Of a stretch of DNA of 64,000 nt, positions 23,210 through 28,866 are shown piece after piece. Within the stretch, counting starts at the first letter, position 1; every line of letters starts with the position of its first letter. Both the position numbers and the translations under genes were made by a program. The DNA is from Roseivirga ehrenbergii. Lineage in GTDB: Bacteria > Bacteroidota > Bacteroidia > Cytophagales > Cyclobacteriaceae. The notes under the pieces were generated by a model. That model had not been told where the DNA came from. It was given only the letters and a program-made list of their open reading frames with translations, and did no database searches. The stretch covers positions 744,001 through 808,000 of the forward strand of contig NZ_LQZQ01000045.1 of the NCBI RefSeq assembly GCF_001593005.1, in the 5' to 3' direction.

Positions 23210-23596
23210 TTATCTTTGGATTTGTTTACCTCCAGCTTGCCAAGCAACAATACCTCCTTCAAGTTCATAGATTTTCTTAAAACCCATTTCCTTCATAATT
23301 TCAAAGGCTTGATTACTTCTAGCTCCTGAATGGCAATACACCGCCACAGCTTTATTCTTGTCCAAACCTTCTAGCTGTGTTTTAAAACTAGGGTTATTAA
23401 AGTTGATCAAAGTCGAATTTTTAATAAAACCTTGAGCGTATTCATCTGGTGTTCTAACATCAATAACCTGCACCGTAGCGTCATCAGCCATTAATGTCTC
23501 AAACTCATTGGCATCTACTTGCTTGGCCACTTGTTCGGTACACCCTAGGGTTAGAAAGGCCATTCCTAAAATAAAAAATATAGTTTTTTTCATCAT
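23210..23596 (-). CDS. Rhodanese-domain lipoprotein
   Basis: A 128-aa protein with signal sequence and lipobox (FLTLGC, Cys19), then one rhodanese domain. The active-site loop reads YCHSGARS, with a catalytic Cys that would carry a persulfide. Its start overlaps the end of the upstream subunit-3 gene by 4 bp, so it is the third gene of the GMC operon. It probably faces the periplasm. Coupling of sulfur transfer to the oxidoreductase is only suggested by the gene order. Confidence 0.87.
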   Translation of the reverse strand: MMKKTIFFILGMAFLTLGCTEQVAKQVDANEFETLMADDATVQVIDVRTPDEYAQGFIKNSTLINFNNPSFKTQLEGLDKNKAVAVYCHSGARSNQAFEIMKEMGFKKIYELEGGIVAWQAGGKQIQR

Positions 23597-24294
23597 GTCA
23601 GTAAATTGCCGTCATCGTCCCAAGTAGCAATATCCATTCGTTTTGATTGATCAACACATTTTGCCAGCCATTCTTCTTCATAAGCCAAGCCTTGTTGTTC
23701 CAGTACATCTTCTGGAATACCATCCCAAACACCCGGCATATTCCCTTTATAACCTAGGTCCTTCACACCCATTTCGGAAGTAAAGTAACCCGTCATAGTA
23801 AGGTTTCTCATGTTGGTAAAGAACCTTTCACCATGCTTTAACTCAGGAGCCGTTTTGCCCGGATAAGCAATGCTATCGCAAATGGCTTTGTGTTGTTCAT
23901 CATTCAGTTTTTTGAATTCCATTCCATATAATTTATTGGAATGAGAATCAAGCCAAGCCAAACCACCACGAATAGGCAATTGGTTATTCGGCATATCCTT
24001 GGCAATAAATTCAATAAACTCAGGAACACCTGCATCGCTTGCCGACCCAAATTCTGCATTTGCAGGAAGAATGATATCGCACAATACCGCAATGGTTTCT
24101 AATTCATGTTCGGTGAAGAATGTTTCTGAAAGCACTTTGGCATCGTGCTCCTTTTCTGCTTCATTTCTTCCATAACCTGGAAGTTGCGGCTTTTCAGGTG
24201 TTTCAACTGTGCTTTCTGGCGCACAACCAGTCACGAGCAGGCCACCTGCTACAGAACCGACCAATAAAGATTTTAATGATTCGCGTCTATCCAT
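23593..24294 (-). CDS. Gluconate 2-dehydrogenase subunit 3-like protein with Tat/lipoprotein signal
   Basis: A 233-aa protein whose N-terminus, MDRRESLKSLLVGSVAGG, has twin arginines followed by a hydrophobic stretch and a Cys (VTGCAP), a Tat-type lipoprotein signal. The body matches the gluconate 2-dehydrogenase subunit 3 family (TFFTEHELETIAVLCDIILP and a later FFTNMRNLTMTGYFTSEMG). These small subunits accompany flavin GMC dehydrogenases and are thought to aid their export or assembly. It starts 3 bp after the GMC gene. Because the GMC partner has no signal of its own, it may be carried out through Tat by this subunit (inference). Confidence 0.88.
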   Translation of the reverse strand: MDRRESLKSLLVGSVAGGLLVTGCAPESTVETPEKPQLPGYGRNEAEKEHDAKVLSETFFTEHELETIAVLCDIILPANAEFGSASDAGVPEFIEFIAKDMPNNQLPIRGGLAWLDSHSNKLYGMEFKKLNDEQHKAICDSIAYPGKTAPELKHGERFFTNMRNLTMTGYFTSEMGVKDLGYKGNMPGVWDGIPEDVLEQQGLAYEEEWLAKCVDQSKRMDIATWDDDGNLLT

Positions 24295-24297
24295 GAC

Positions 24298-26019
24298 TTA
24301 AATATTTCTTTGTTTTACTTGTTCAACTAAATAATCTGATGCTCTCCAAGCCAAGGCCAATATGGTCCAAGTTGGGTTTTTATCGGCTTGCGACACAAAC
24401 GGGCCTGCATCCATAACAAATACATTCGGGCAATCATGAAGCTGATTGTATTTATTGGTCACCGACTCTTTTTTGTCGTTACCCATTCTGGTAGTACCCA
24501 CTTCGTGAATAATTTCGCCAGGAGCGGTTAATCCATAATTTCGGTCTTTTCCAGGCTTATCGCCTAACAAAATACCTCCTGTAGCATCTAAAATTTGCTC
24601 GAAAGTATCTTGCATGTGTTTGGCTTGATTCACTTCATGCTCTGTCCATTGATAGTTGAACTTGAGTACAGGAATTCCCCACTCATCAACTACATTATTA
24701 TCAATCTCGCAGTAATTATTGCGTTGCGGAATGCTCTCTCCTCGACCTGACACTCCCAATACAGCACCATAGTACTTCTTAACATCAGCCCTAAGTGATT
24801 CTCCATAACCACCTACTTCGCCCCCCATTATCTTATTCAAATTATTTGGGTTGAAACCGAAGCCATAACTTGGCATTCCCATTCCGCCCCAAACCTCAAT
24901 ATGGTAGCCTCTAGGGAAATCTAATTTCTTATCATTTAGCCACCAAGGCGTGTAAACATGCATTCCACCTACTCCATCTTCATTATAAATCTTACGATCC
25001 ATCAGTTTTGGAAGGAATACAGAACGACTAGCTCCAGTAGAGTCGTGCAGGTATCTACCTACCAAACCACTGCTGTTGCCTAAGCCATCTTGGTGAACAC
25101 TGCTTTTTGAGTTCAGTAAAATTCGAGCCGAAGAACAAGCCGAAGCCGCCATTACTACCACTTTGGCTTTTAGGTGATATTCCTTTCTATCAAGCTTATT
25201 TACATAGTTTACACCTGTGGCTTTTCCTTCCTTATCTGTGGTTACTTCGCGCACCATAGAATTGGTAAATAATTCAATTTTTCCTCCATTCTTTTGGGCT
25301 GGAAAAATCAAGCAAGTTCCGGAAGAGAAATCGGCATAAGCTGAGCAAGCACGGTTACACTGACCACAATAAAAACAACTTCCTCGTTGGTTATTAATTC
25401 GTTTAGTAAGAATTGAAAGCCTTGAAGGAATTACAGGAATACCTGCTTTTCTGGCTCCATTAATATAGTATAGCTCGTGAAGCCTTGGTTTTGGCGGAGG
25501 CAAAAAGAAGCCGTCTGGTTCGTTGTGAATATTTTCTTTACTACCGAAAACGCCAATGAGTTTGTCCACCTTATCGTAATAAGGTTTTACATCATCATAG
25601 CCAATCGGCCAGTTGTCGCCAAGGCCATCAACGCTTTTTCGCTTAAAGTCTAAAGGCCCAAAACGAAGCGAAATTCTACCCCAGTGGTTAGTTCTTCCGC
25701 CCAACATTCTGGAACGGAACCAAGCAAAACGAGTTCCTGGCGCTTCGGTATAAGGTTCTCCGGCCAAATTCCAGCCTCCATAGGCGGCATCATAATCACC
25801 AAAAGACCTTCGGTCGGAGCTAGCACCGCGTCTAGGAGATTCCCAAGGCCAACGCAATTGGGTTCTATATTCGTCTTGTGCGGGGTCAAAAAATGGACCG
25901 GCTTCGAGTACTGCTACATCAAAACCCGCCTCTGACAATATCTTAGTTGCCATTCCCCCACCGGCTCCTGAGCCGACAATGACAACATCATAAACTTTTG
26001 AGGATTCTATAACTTGCAT
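24298..26019 (-). CDS. GMC-family FAD oxidoreductase
   Basis: A 573-aa flavoprotein. The N-terminal dinucleotide-binding motif is DVVIVGSGAGGGMATKIL (about residues 10-27). GGRTNHWGR is the second FAD signature. The region SCFYCGQCNRACSAYAD is a Cys-rich insert (four Cys within about 10 residues) common in gluconate-dehydrogenase-type GMC enzymes. The C-terminus has HEVGTTRMG and the NPTWTILALAWRASDY motif that contacts the flavin. It likely oxidises a sugar or alcohol; the substrate is not shown. First gene of an operon with the Tat-signal subunit 3 and a rhodanese lipoprotein. The divergent gap 26020-26327 holds no gene that I see. Confidence 0.92.
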   Translation of the reverse strand: MQVIESSKVYDVVIVGSGAGGGMATKILSEAGFDVAVLEAGPFFDPAQDEYRTQLRWPWESPRRGASSDRRSFGDYDAAYGGWNLAGEPYTEAPGTRFAWFRSRMLGGRTNHWGRISLRFGPLDFKRKSVDGLGDNWPIGYDDVKPYYDKVDKLIGVFGSKENIHNEPDGFFLPPPKPRLHELYYINGARKAGIPVIPSRLSILTKRINNQRGSCFYCGQCNRACSAYADFSSGTCLIFPAQKNGGKIELFTNSMVREVTTDKEGKATGVNYVNKLDRKEYHLKAKVVVMAASACSSARILLNSKSSVHQDGLGNSSGLVGRYLHDSTGASRSVFLPKLMDRKIYNEDGVGGMHVYTPWWLNDKKLDFPRGYHIEVWGGMGMPSYGFGFNPNNLNKIMGGEVGGYGESLRADVKKYYGAVLGVSGRGESIPQRNNYCEIDNNVVDEWGIPVLKFNYQWTEHEVNQAKHMQDTFEQILDATGGILLGDKPGKDRNYGLTAPGEIIHEVGTTRMGNDKKESVTNKYNQLHDCPNVFVMDAGPFVSQADKNPTWTILALAWRASDYLVEQVKQRNI

Positions 26020-26327: not shown

Positions 26328-27203
26328 ATGAAAAAACAACTTCTGTTTTGCATGGCTTTTAGTTTTTTAGCCTTCACAAGCTTTGCACAAACACCACCTC
26401 CCGACACAGAAATCTTTGTTTTCGACCTGAAAGAAAAAAAGGGAAATGTATCGATTGAAAAAGGTAAGAACGTAACAGAACGAAAGGGCTACGACAATCA
26501 ACCTTATTTTTATGGGGAAGATTATATGCTCTACACTGCCTACGAGAATGGTCAAACAGACATTATTATGTTAGACTTACTTGAAGGGAAGAAAACCAAC
26601 CTGACCAACTCTAAAGAAAGCGAATACTCTGCCGCAATGGTTCCGGGCTTCGAGTCGTTTGCAGCGGTAAGGGTTGAAGAAGATGGTACGCAAAGGCTTT
26701 GGTTGTTCCATTTAAACACAAAAAAAGCTCCGCAACTTGTATTTGAAGACATTGCTCCTGTTGGCTATCATGCATGGAGCGGCTCTAATGTAGCCATGTT
26801 TATTTTAGGTACACCCATAACTTTATTGATGGCCGATGCCCGACAACCTGGCGAAAAAAAAATTACTGACAACATAGGCAGAACTATAAAACTTATACCG
26901 GGTTCAGCCGACTTTGCCTTTGAAAGAACTGAAGAGAATGGTGATAAAAACATTTACCGTTTAAACTCAAAAACTGCAAGGTTTGATGTAACCGTAAAAA
27001 AACCTGATAATTCTAGTGATTGGACGATTACAAACGAAGGCACTTACGTAACCAGTGTGGACTCTAAAATACTGACCTTCAATCCGAAATATGATAAGGA
27101 CTGGAAGGAGGTTACAGACTTGAGTTCTATGGGGCTTTCAGGAATCACCCGAATGGCTGTGAATGAAAACAACACAAAAATTGCGATAGTAATTAACCGA
27201 TAG
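26328..27203 (+). CDS. Secreted TolB-like beta-propeller protein of unknown function
   Basis: A 291-aa exported protein; the signal peptide ends near FTSFAQ (residue 21). The rest consists of short blade-like repeats of the WD40/PD40 (TolB) type, such as YTAYENGQTDIIMLDLLEG and KNIYRLNSKTARFD. There are too few repeats for a complete six-blade propeller, so it may pair with itself or be a partial propeller. There is no catalytic motif. It stands alone between the GMC operon (divergent) and the actin-like gene, about 140 bp away. Confidence 0.6.
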   Translation: MKKQLLFCMAFSFLAFTSFAQTPPPDTEIFVFDLKEKKGNVSIEKGKNVTERKGYDNQPYFYGEDYMLYTAYENGQTDIIMLDLLEGKKTNLTNSKESEYSAAMVPGFESFAAVRVEEDGTQRLWLFHLNTKKAPQLVFEDIAPVGYHAWSGSNVAMFILGTPITLLMADARQPGEKKITDNIGRTIKLIPGSADFAFERTEENGDKNIYRLNSKTARFDVTVKKPDNSSDWTITNEGTYVTSVDSKILTFNPKYDKDWKEVTDLSSMGLSGITRMAVNENNTKIAIVINR

Positions 27204-27344
27204 CAGATTTTCAGTTTTTAAATCGAAAACTTTTTCAGAAATTCCAGCGATTTTTCAATGATACAGCCAAAAAAAAGCGATTAAATCGTATTATTGTCTT
27301 TCGTTCAAACCGCTCTAAAATATTTGCATACCAAATCATTAACT

Positions 27345-28400
27345 ATGTTCAAAACCTATACTTTCCCAAGTGTCTTTGAAGGAAATAATACTGACCTCAA
27401 AAACGTATCACCTGACCTGATCAATGGACTGAAAATTTTTCATAATGGTGAAGGTTATGTGATAGGCAACCTAGCCTTAACTGAAGGAGTTTCCCCACAT
27501 AAAAATATCAACAGTGCTCCAGATGAATTGGATTACCAAATTCTATTGAAGGCAGCACTACTTATTGCCAACCAAAAGTTAGGCAACCCAATTACAATCA
27601 CCACAGGATTTCCCTTTTCAACTTTTCAATTGAATAAAGAAAAGGCCACGCAACTTATTGATGGGCAACATACTGTTGAATATGATGCGGCAACCTACGG
27701 GGGTGGCATTAAAAAGAATGTTCAAGTTGAAGTAGCTGGAGCACAGGTAATACCTGAAGTTATTGGCTGTACGATTGCTTTGAGAAAAGGCATTACAAAA
27801 GCACAAGGCAACTTCTTTGTAATGAGTTTGGGTTACGGAACACTCGAAGGACTTTTGAGCACTGAGGGCGGAATTGTACAAAGAACTTCACTTTCAACTT
27901 ACGGCCTTCGTTACGCTATAAACTTGCTTGAGAAAGAATTAGCCAAGGAGCACTACTTAGAATTGAAAACAGAACATCAGATTGATGCTGCTTTCCAAAA
28001 AGGAGTGATTTTCTTGAACAGAAAAAGAATTGACATCAGAAGCATGCGCGATAGAGTGCTGAAGCAATATTACGAGGATGTAATATCACCAGCCATGCGC
28101 AAAGCATTTAATGATAATGACTTTATGGCAAGTCAGATTATGTATTTAGCTGGGGGTGGTGCTATATACACCGCGCTTGTAGATTGTTTTAAAGAAGAAT
28201 TCCGTGATGTACTTGACCTTGAAATCGCTCATGAGCCACAATCTTTGGCGAGCCGTGGCTATTGCATCAACTCTGCACAGCTCAATGGTGGTGTAAAAAG
28301 CACTGCAGTAGGTTTAGATATTGGAAATGCAACAACAGTCGTTTCAATTTTTGACGACAACAATACCGTATCTGAAACTTCAATTCCTTCTGAATATTAA
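27345..28400 (+). CDS. Actin-like ATPase (ParM/Alp type) with apparently permuted phosphate-1 motif
   Basis: The start at 27345 (MFKTYTFPSVFEGNN) is preferred over 27294. The 351-aa protein follows the ParM/archaeal-actin order: FPS strand at the N-terminus, GYVIGNLAL (38-45), ITITTGFPFSTF (83-94), a phosphate-2-like loop FFVMSLGYGTLEGLLS (157-172) and an adenosine loop MYLAGGGAIYTAL (266-278). The phosphate-1 hairpin that should open the protein is missing there. A good match, AVGLDIGNATTVVSIF (321-336), sits at the very C-terminus. This suggests circular permutation, or a hairpin swapped between subunits in a filament. The Asp normally opening phosphate 2 is replaced by Ser161. A bactofilin gene follows after 13 nt. 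Actin-like fold is confident; filament formation and role are inferred. Confidence 0.8.
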   Translation: MFKTYTFPSVFEGNNTDLKNVSPDLINGLKIFHNGEGYVIGNLALTEGVSPHKNINSAPDELDYQILLKAALLIANQKLGNPITITTGFPFSTFQLNKEKATQLIDGQHTVEYDAATYGGGIKKNVQVEVAGAQVIPEVIGCTIALRKGITKAQGNFFVMSLGYGTLEGLLSTEGGIVQRTSLSTYGLRYAINLLEKELAKEHYLELKTEHQIDAAFQKGVIFLNRKRIDIRSMRDRVLKQYYEDVISPAMRKAFNDNDFMASQIMYLAGGGAIYTALVDCFKEEFRDVLDLEIAHEPQSLASRGYCINSAQLNGGVKSTAVGLDIGNATTVVSIFDDNNTVSETSIPSEY

Positions 28401-28413
28401 TAAAGCATTATAA

Positions 28414-28866
28414 ATGGCTGCTATTACTCCATCTACGCATATCACTCAAATTAAGCAAGGTTCTATTATAACTGGAAACTTAAAGTCTAGTCAGAGTATA
28501 CGCGTAGATGGTAATATTACCGGAGATTTGCTCTCTGATGAAAAAATCATCATTGGTATTAATGGTGAAATTGGTGGGAACCTTAGAGGTATTGATATTA
28601 CTGTTGAAGGCTTTGTGAATGGAGATGTAATGTGTAAGGGCTTTTTACATGTTACAAAAAGTGCCAAAATTTTTGGTAAAATCTACGCCAAAGAAATCTC
28701 AATAGAAAAAGGTGCCGAACTGAACGGAAAAGTGAACGTAGGCAAGGAAATAGAAATTCCAGAGCTCAATACTTCATCCCCTTCTCGTTCTTCTAGCCAA
28801 GATAAAACCAAAAGTATTTCTTCTCCACCTGAGAAGAAGGATAATTACGGCTCTGTGGCTTGGTAG
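28414..28866 (+). CDS. Bactofilin (polymer-forming cytoskeletal protein)
   Basis: A 150-aa bactofilin. The central beta-helix shows the ~17-residue hydrophobic/Gly rhythm: GSIITGNLKSSQSIRVDG, NITGDLLSDEKIIIG, VEGFVNGDVMCKGFLHV, AKIFGKIYAKEISIEK. A short disordered N-terminus and a Ser/Pro/Lys-rich tail (about 120-150) flank it, as is usual. Bactofilins form nucleotide-independent filaments that organise cell-wall enzymes, stalks or chromosome segregation proteins. Its ATG is 13 nt after the stop of the actin-like gene on the same strand, so the two are almost certainly in one operon. Confidence 0.95.
   Translation: MAAITPSTHITQIKQGSIITGNLKSSQSIRVDGNITGDLLSDEKIIIGINGEIGGNLRGIDITVEGFVNGDVMCKGFLHVTKSAKIFGKIYAKEISIEKGAELNGKVNVGKEIEIPELNTSSPSRSSSQDKTKSISSPPEKKDNYGSVAW

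Follow-up and report, generated by a model that had tools for sequence, protein, structure and literature searches.

A family of actin-like proteins with the phosphate-1 hairpin at the C-terminus: probable natural circular permutation and association with a bactofilin

The polypeptide chain of canonical actins, Hsp70s and ParMs begins with the phosphate-1 hairpin. Here we describe an actin-like protein in which this hairpin lies at the opposite end; the protein is encoded in Roseivirga ehrenbergii (genome of 4.24 Mb), within a 64,000-nucleotide stretch of contig NZ_LQZQ01000045.1 that was analyzed as a whole and is hereinafter denoted the window. The nearest structures are those of ParMs, one of them genome-encoded, and the protein appears to belong to the ParM/Ta0583 side of the actin family. 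Among other actin-like proteins, FcmB of a filamentous cyanobacterium is reported to have a role in cell shape (PMC12645912). The downstream gene encodes a bactofilin paralogue; most bactofilin C-terminal tails are described as short and poorly conserved, and BacP of Myxococcus xanthus is reported to bind PadC through its own (PMC12448750). The features discussed below are listed in Table 1.

In the translated open reading frame (ORF), the 351-residue chain opens MFKTYTFPSVFEG and closes STAVGLDIGNATTVVSIFDDNNTVSETSIPSEY. A sequence-only reading of this DNA had proposed that the N-terminus lacks the DxGxxxTK hairpin and begins directly at the next strand, and that a hairpin at residues 321-336 forms the tail; both observations hold, the first in the upstream frames as well as in the relatives, and the second in the AlphaFold model, which places strands at E321-326 and E330-336. 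Starting instead at the in-frame TTG at 27294 would lengthen the chain by no more than 17 residues, free of the motif, and none of the three forward frames contains D-x-G in the 141 bases that separate the ATG from the upstream gene. A misannotated start was rejected on these grounds, and given that the same ends recur in 53 rows from many genomes, the probability that a misread start or a frameshift conceals a normal N-terminal motif is negligible.

In an alignment of 53 relatives, the window's own gene included, with pairwise identities down to 36%, the hairpin is C-terminal throughout, and the canonical order, with the phosphate-1 hairpin first, was not encountered. Four residues of the phosphate-1 motif (D325, G327, N328 and T331) are invariant in all 53 sequences, which indicates conservation beyond chance; they are found close to the C-terminus, except in three sequences, where they stand about 100 residues before it. 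The new N-terminus carries three invariant residues of its own (P8, S9 and E12), and the pattern D.G.{2,3}[TS] occurs within the first 60 residues of none of the 53. One more relative, L059, was missed by the pattern and lies outside the alignment; its end, LGMDIGNSTTVVTLFPKKTDAVN, is of the same arrangement. The comparison of homologues that the sequence-only reading had called for came out in favor of a circular permutation.

Additional evidence comes from moving the C-terminal hairpin to the front of the sequence and comparing the result with the Pfam profile ALP_N (PF17989), for four diverse relatives taken singly. All four exceed the gathering score of 26.3 bits already in the native order, and of eight relatives scanned, six match at E<1. 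In the native order, the match extends from profile position 17, 18 or 19 to 145-147, and in the rotated order it begins at position 1, which implies that the part of the domain missing from the front is located at the opposite end of the chain. The scores rise from 41.5 to 51.4, from 34.5 to 47.2, from 53.6 to 63.4 and from 47.5 to 53.4 bits. The AlphaFold monomer (predicted template-modelling score 0.90) has an actin-like two-domain fold by structure comparison, in which residue 1 of the model is aligned with residue 24 of actin, 21-23 of ParM and 19 of Ta0583; in all 50 rows of this comparison, the residues preceding the aligned range are where the phosphate-1 hairpin belongs. That any given family is absent from the lists of structures was not taken as evidence.

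Several observations weigh against a permutation, or limit what the rotation can be credited with. In a control of six constructs with shuffled tails and shortened cores, the ALP_N match begins at positions 6-16 and reaches 44.3-45.8, 40.1, 56.6-56.8 and 49.8 bits, so that the shuffled tails, too, outscore the native order (40-57 bits), and only 3.6-7.1 bits can be credited to the real hairpin; perhaps, the rise in the control is partly due to the cores being cut short. Rotated or not, the window protein itself fails to match ALP_N at E up to 1, and it falls just under the MreB-like_C cut-off (26.7 versus 27.8). In a sequence-profile search of the PDB, rotation changes the E-value for 8x1i only from 1.8e-4 to 9.2e-5, and the second match is an unrelated ribosomal protein in both orders. 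The rotation search suggested by the sequence-only reading therefore bore it out in part, through the ALP_N gain in four relatives, and not through the PDB, where the gain is marginal; the argument for permutation rests on ALP_N, conservation and fold. On balance, a natural circular permutation, the first of two options that had been offered for this protein, with the hairpin completing the ATP site in cis, is very probable given the conservation, the rotated profile and the fold comparison; docking in cis is suggested by the confident monomer model and by the constant length of the linker.

The second option was a strand-swapped actin, in which the C-terminal hairpin of each subunit completes the ATP site of the next, coupling folding to filament growth. 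The hairpin does lie at the chain end, and domain swaps of this kind are geometrically possible. However, the hairpin is placed confidently in the monomer model, with a block-mean predicted local distance difference test (pLDDT) score of 93 for residues 321-330 and 83 for 331-340, and the distance that separates GYC, or the equivalent residues, from the motif Thr is constant, and with it the length of the linker: 27 residues in 48 of the 53 relatives and 26 in the other five. The tail sequence TSIPSEY, which had been taken as a repeat of strand 3 that suits a swap, is confined to 16 rows, all from the window's genus, and is of low predicted confidence (block-mean pLDDT of 51, and under 50 at 348-351), so that the swap loses its main support. 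We consider strand donation between subunits improbable. Past the motif, the chain ends within 6-13 residues in 34 of the 53 sequences, whereas three have a different extension of about 100 residues.

Protein and profile searches supplied the relatives, in draws of genomes that overlap and mostly include the window's genome. They were detected in 44 of 295 genomes of the family, with 231 further genomes giving no match, in 5 of 241 in the order-wide draw, 5 of 395 in the class-wide draw and 19 of 296 in the phylum-wide draw, and in 24 of 195 genomes of the class of G1041, a genome that we take to be Salinibacter-like. Fifteen loci come from named genomes, the nearest being Roseivirga seohaensis (99% identical). 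As far as the sequences tell, the permuted arrangement is common to relatives in other classes of the same phylum. Within the window's genus, 16 genomes, the window's own included, carry the gene, and one genome that is 84% complete has no match. This distribution bears on the possibility that a plasmid-partition ParM was captured by the chromosome and still segregates DNA, a view in line with ParMs being the nearest structures. Nevertheless, the search of 72,556 plasmid and 50,697 phage records yielded no relative, and viral contigs scanned with alignment A4 gave 41 pattern matches, none of them a relative. The combination of a plasmid or phage site and a ParR-like adaptor that marks plasmid-partition ParMs is not seen; the recurrent neighbor is a bactofilin and not a DNA-binding adaptor. 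Taken together with the distribution in the genus, this makes a captured ParM very improbable. The protein does not appear to be an MreB either: it has no match to PF06723 at E up to 1, four of the eight relatives scanned match weakly (best E 0.0072, and under the 27-bit cut-off in the three shown), and the genome encodes a normal MreB of its own (E 1.5e-125).

With respect to the active site, the sequence-only reading had placed the other landmarks, GYGT and AGGGA, in the normal order. The order stands, with the correction that the phosphate-2 motif reads SLGYGT, with Ser in place of the Asp of the superfamily. Among the 53 relatives, the G[YF]G[TS] part is retained, and the Asp position is occupied by Ser in 50, Gly in two and Asn in one, and by Asp in none. 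In ParM and actin, the equivalent Asp helps to hold the metal, and its loss slows hydrolysis. Accordingly, loss of this residue leads us to predict slow turnover and long-lived filaments. E138 is a candidate for the catalytic role, by analogy with the biochemistry of ParM and actin.

The recurrent genomic neighbor of the family is a bactofilin. A neighbor was defined as a same-strand open frame starting less than 1500 nucleotides downstream, with the distance measured to the open frame and not to the start codon. Among 66 rows of actin-like genes (in which L105 and L059 represent the same gene, and a single fragmented genome contributes both L136 and L139), 51 have a bactofilin frame within 420 nucleotides. 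As points against a fixed partnership, 11 rows lack a downstream bactofilin, one of them being cut by the contig end, and in four the bactofilin lies at 1.0-1.2 kb, so that the pairing is not universal. When frames of at least 100 amino acids from about 6 kb on each side of 20 loci (less in three) were clustered by BLAST, the bactofilins of 11 loci grouped together and no other plausible gene family was found in at least three lineages; the only other cluster of that breadth overlaps the actin and bactofilin genes in antisense, and two clusters that each cover two lineages resemble response regulators. In six genomes of the family with the actin-like gene, there are 2, 3, 2, 2, 2 and 3 bactofilin copies, versus 1, 0, 1, 1, 1, 1, 1 and 4 in eight without it. 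As for the N-termini, in the window's genome the neighbor begins MAAITPSTHI and the other bactofilin MFTSKESKK; the idea that neighbor bactofilins have lost an N-terminal membrane peptide, true by eye of this pair, does not extend to all of them, L020 keeping MFSKREK. Two genomes, G1041 (L057 and L071) and G1001 (L060 and L070), each encode two permuted actins at separate places, and a bactofilin of its own follows each actin; these bactofilins end VDW or IDW in one of the pairs and IEW in the second. At L056 and L066, which have no bactofilin neighbor, a secreted and apparently OmpA-like protein follows about 350-430 bases after the actin gene, as judged by eye.

Most neighbor bactofilins share a distinctive end. 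A Trp within the last two residues is found in 49 of the 54 complete neighbors versus none of 27 complete non-neighbors, the latter drawn from genomes with and without the actin; four bactofilins truncated by the end of a contig or locus were excluded. The ends include VAW, PRTW, GGWI, IEW, VDW, KLW and RFW, and the exceptions are L068 (SLLF), L069 (SLIF), L080 and L081 (both 1.2 kb away) and L139. These counts do not take kinship into account: of the 54 neighbors, 18 belong to the window's genus or its nearest kin and another 15 to its family, and a Trp end is found in 16 of the remaining 21. In three loci of one family without an adjacent bactofilin (L049-L051), the actin itself has an extension of some 100 residues, with FLKTGMW or FLISGTW at its end. 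The occurrence of a Trp-ending tail on either bactofilin or actin points to a docking peptide, with the actin itself, some third protein and the membrane as candidate receptors. The L049-L051 tail, which is of low complexity and closes with a cationic, Trp-terminated peptide (RLGKFLKTGMW, RIHKFLISGTW), is possibly a membrane or partner anchor. The pattern does not cover the lineages of L052, L054-L056, L058, L066 and L133, in which the actin lacks both the Trp tail and a bactofilin downstream.

These observations can be combined into a mechanism. By sequence and predicted fold, the chain starts at strand 3, passes through the normal core and finishes with strands 1 and 2; about seven residues lead from the old C-terminal helix into strand 1, and the turn between strands 2 and 3 is where the new termini lie. 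The phosphate-1 loop would fold back onto its own subunit and complete the ATP site. The actin would most likely build ATP-dependent filaments, a predicted activity that is perhaps slow-hydrolyzing because the phosphate-2 Asp is Ser, and would work with the bactofilin paralogue encoded next door, the polymer of which, via its tail and terminal Trp, might dock the filaments to each other or to a common membrane or wall receptor. In one lineage without an adjacent bactofilin, the actin itself bears such a Trp-ending tail, at the terminus made by the permutation. We infer this scheme of filaments and docking at roughly even odds. An alternative that competes with the mechanism and not with the permutation is that the protein, still completed in cis, is a scaffold, nucleotide-binding or dead, that does not polymerize on its own and decorates or regulates bactofilin filaments. 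It would fit the replacement of the phosphate-2 Asp by Ser, Gly or Asn throughout the family, the conserved bactofilin neighbor and the polymerization of bactofilins without nucleotides (PMC12448750); yet the invariant phosphate-1 Asp, candidate catalytic Glu and adenosine GGG[AS] argue for nucleotide use, and, to judge from the titles of the entries, filaments are represented several times among the nearest folds. A scaffold appears rather unlikely on this evidence, while still deserving consideration. Returning to filament-forming actins, our tentative overall proposal, which falls somewhat short of an even chance, is that an old permuted actin family of this phylum and its dedicated bactofilin make up a composite cytoskeleton, in which loss of the Asp would give long-lived filaments, the permutation would have freed a terminus at the turn from strand 2 to strand 3, and a peptide ending in Trp, on either partner, would tie the polymers together or to one shared receptor.

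Table 1. Coordinates of the features of the actin-like gene and its bactofilin neighbor in the window
Feature	Position	Strand	Basis
Actin-like protein, 351 amino acids, very probably circularly permuted	27345..28400	+	ORF, relatives, predicted fold
New N-terminus (residues 2-14), corresponding to strand 3 plus the PSV segment in canonical actins	27348..27386	+	Fold alignment; P8/S9/E12 invariance
E138, candidate catalytic Glu	27756..27758	+	Invariant 53/53; aligned with Glu of DnaK NEPTAAA segment
Phosphate-2 motif SLGYGT, Asp to Ser	27825..27842	+	
Adenosine motif LAGGGA	28146..28163	+	GGG[AS] in 53/53
Residues 314-320, bridge from old C-terminal helix to displaced strand 1	28284..28304	+	AlphaFold secondary structure; constant length
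Displaced phosphate-1 hairpin, residues 321-336	28305..28352	+	AlphaFold strands; rotated-profile test and shuffled control
Phosphate-1 motif D325-I-G-N-A-T-T331	28317..28337	+	Invariant D325, G327, N328, T331 (53/53)
TSIPSEY tail, no conserved strand-3 repeat	28377..28397	+	Genus-restricted; low predicted confidence
Bactofilin paralogue, 13 bases downstream of the actin gene	28414..28866	+	PF04519, 77.7 bits (cut-off 27.9)
Bactofilin C-terminus YGSVAW, terminal Trp	28846..28863	+	

Upstream of the actin gene, about 140 bases away on the same strand, lies a gene (26328-27203) for a protein with a signal peptide by eye that weakly resembles the TolB propeller (19.8 bits, far under the cut-off; E 3e-4). 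Farther upstream, on the opposite strand, 23593-26019 appears by eye to encode a GMC-type oxidoreductase with a small partner subunit.

A whole family with the hairpin at the chain end would show that the actin core tolerates natural permutation and would provide a ready system for studying the part that chain ends play in filaments. Through the conserved pairing with a bactofilin, a nucleotide-driven polymer would be connected to a nucleotide-free one in a genome that also keeps MreB, and the Trp-ending tail offers a small, testable handle on this connection. Among the literature matches listed (titles and abstract openings), there was neither a permuted actin-like protein nor an actin-bactofilin operon; PMC1079889 uses the term "circular permutation" twice, both times for groups of kinase folds in general. 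Term searches of the accessible text of the Dh-cParM1 paper (PMC12270681) and the FcmB paper (PMC12645912) gave no permutation and no bactofilin. In Dh-cParM1, the genome-encoded ParM of Desulfitobacterium hafniense (PDB 8x1i), the residues before 23, the canonical place of the hairpin, are outside the aligned range; the archaeal actin homolog Ta0583 (PDB 2fsj, 2fsn; PF21522) is aligned from residue 19, so that the hairpin that is C-terminal in the present family belongs before this point; and in CorM of Anabaena (PDB 9rmi), any hairpin precedes the aligned range of 60-378. FcmB of a filamentous cyanobacterium (NF052678) is a distinct protein, the window protein reaching 19.7 bits versus a cut-off of 300. 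The bactofilin side of the system resembles BacA/BacP, which likewise form a bactofilin polymer with disordered tails that recruits clients (PMC12448750); the difference is that here the conserved neighbor is an actin-like protein and the bactofilin tail ends in Trp.
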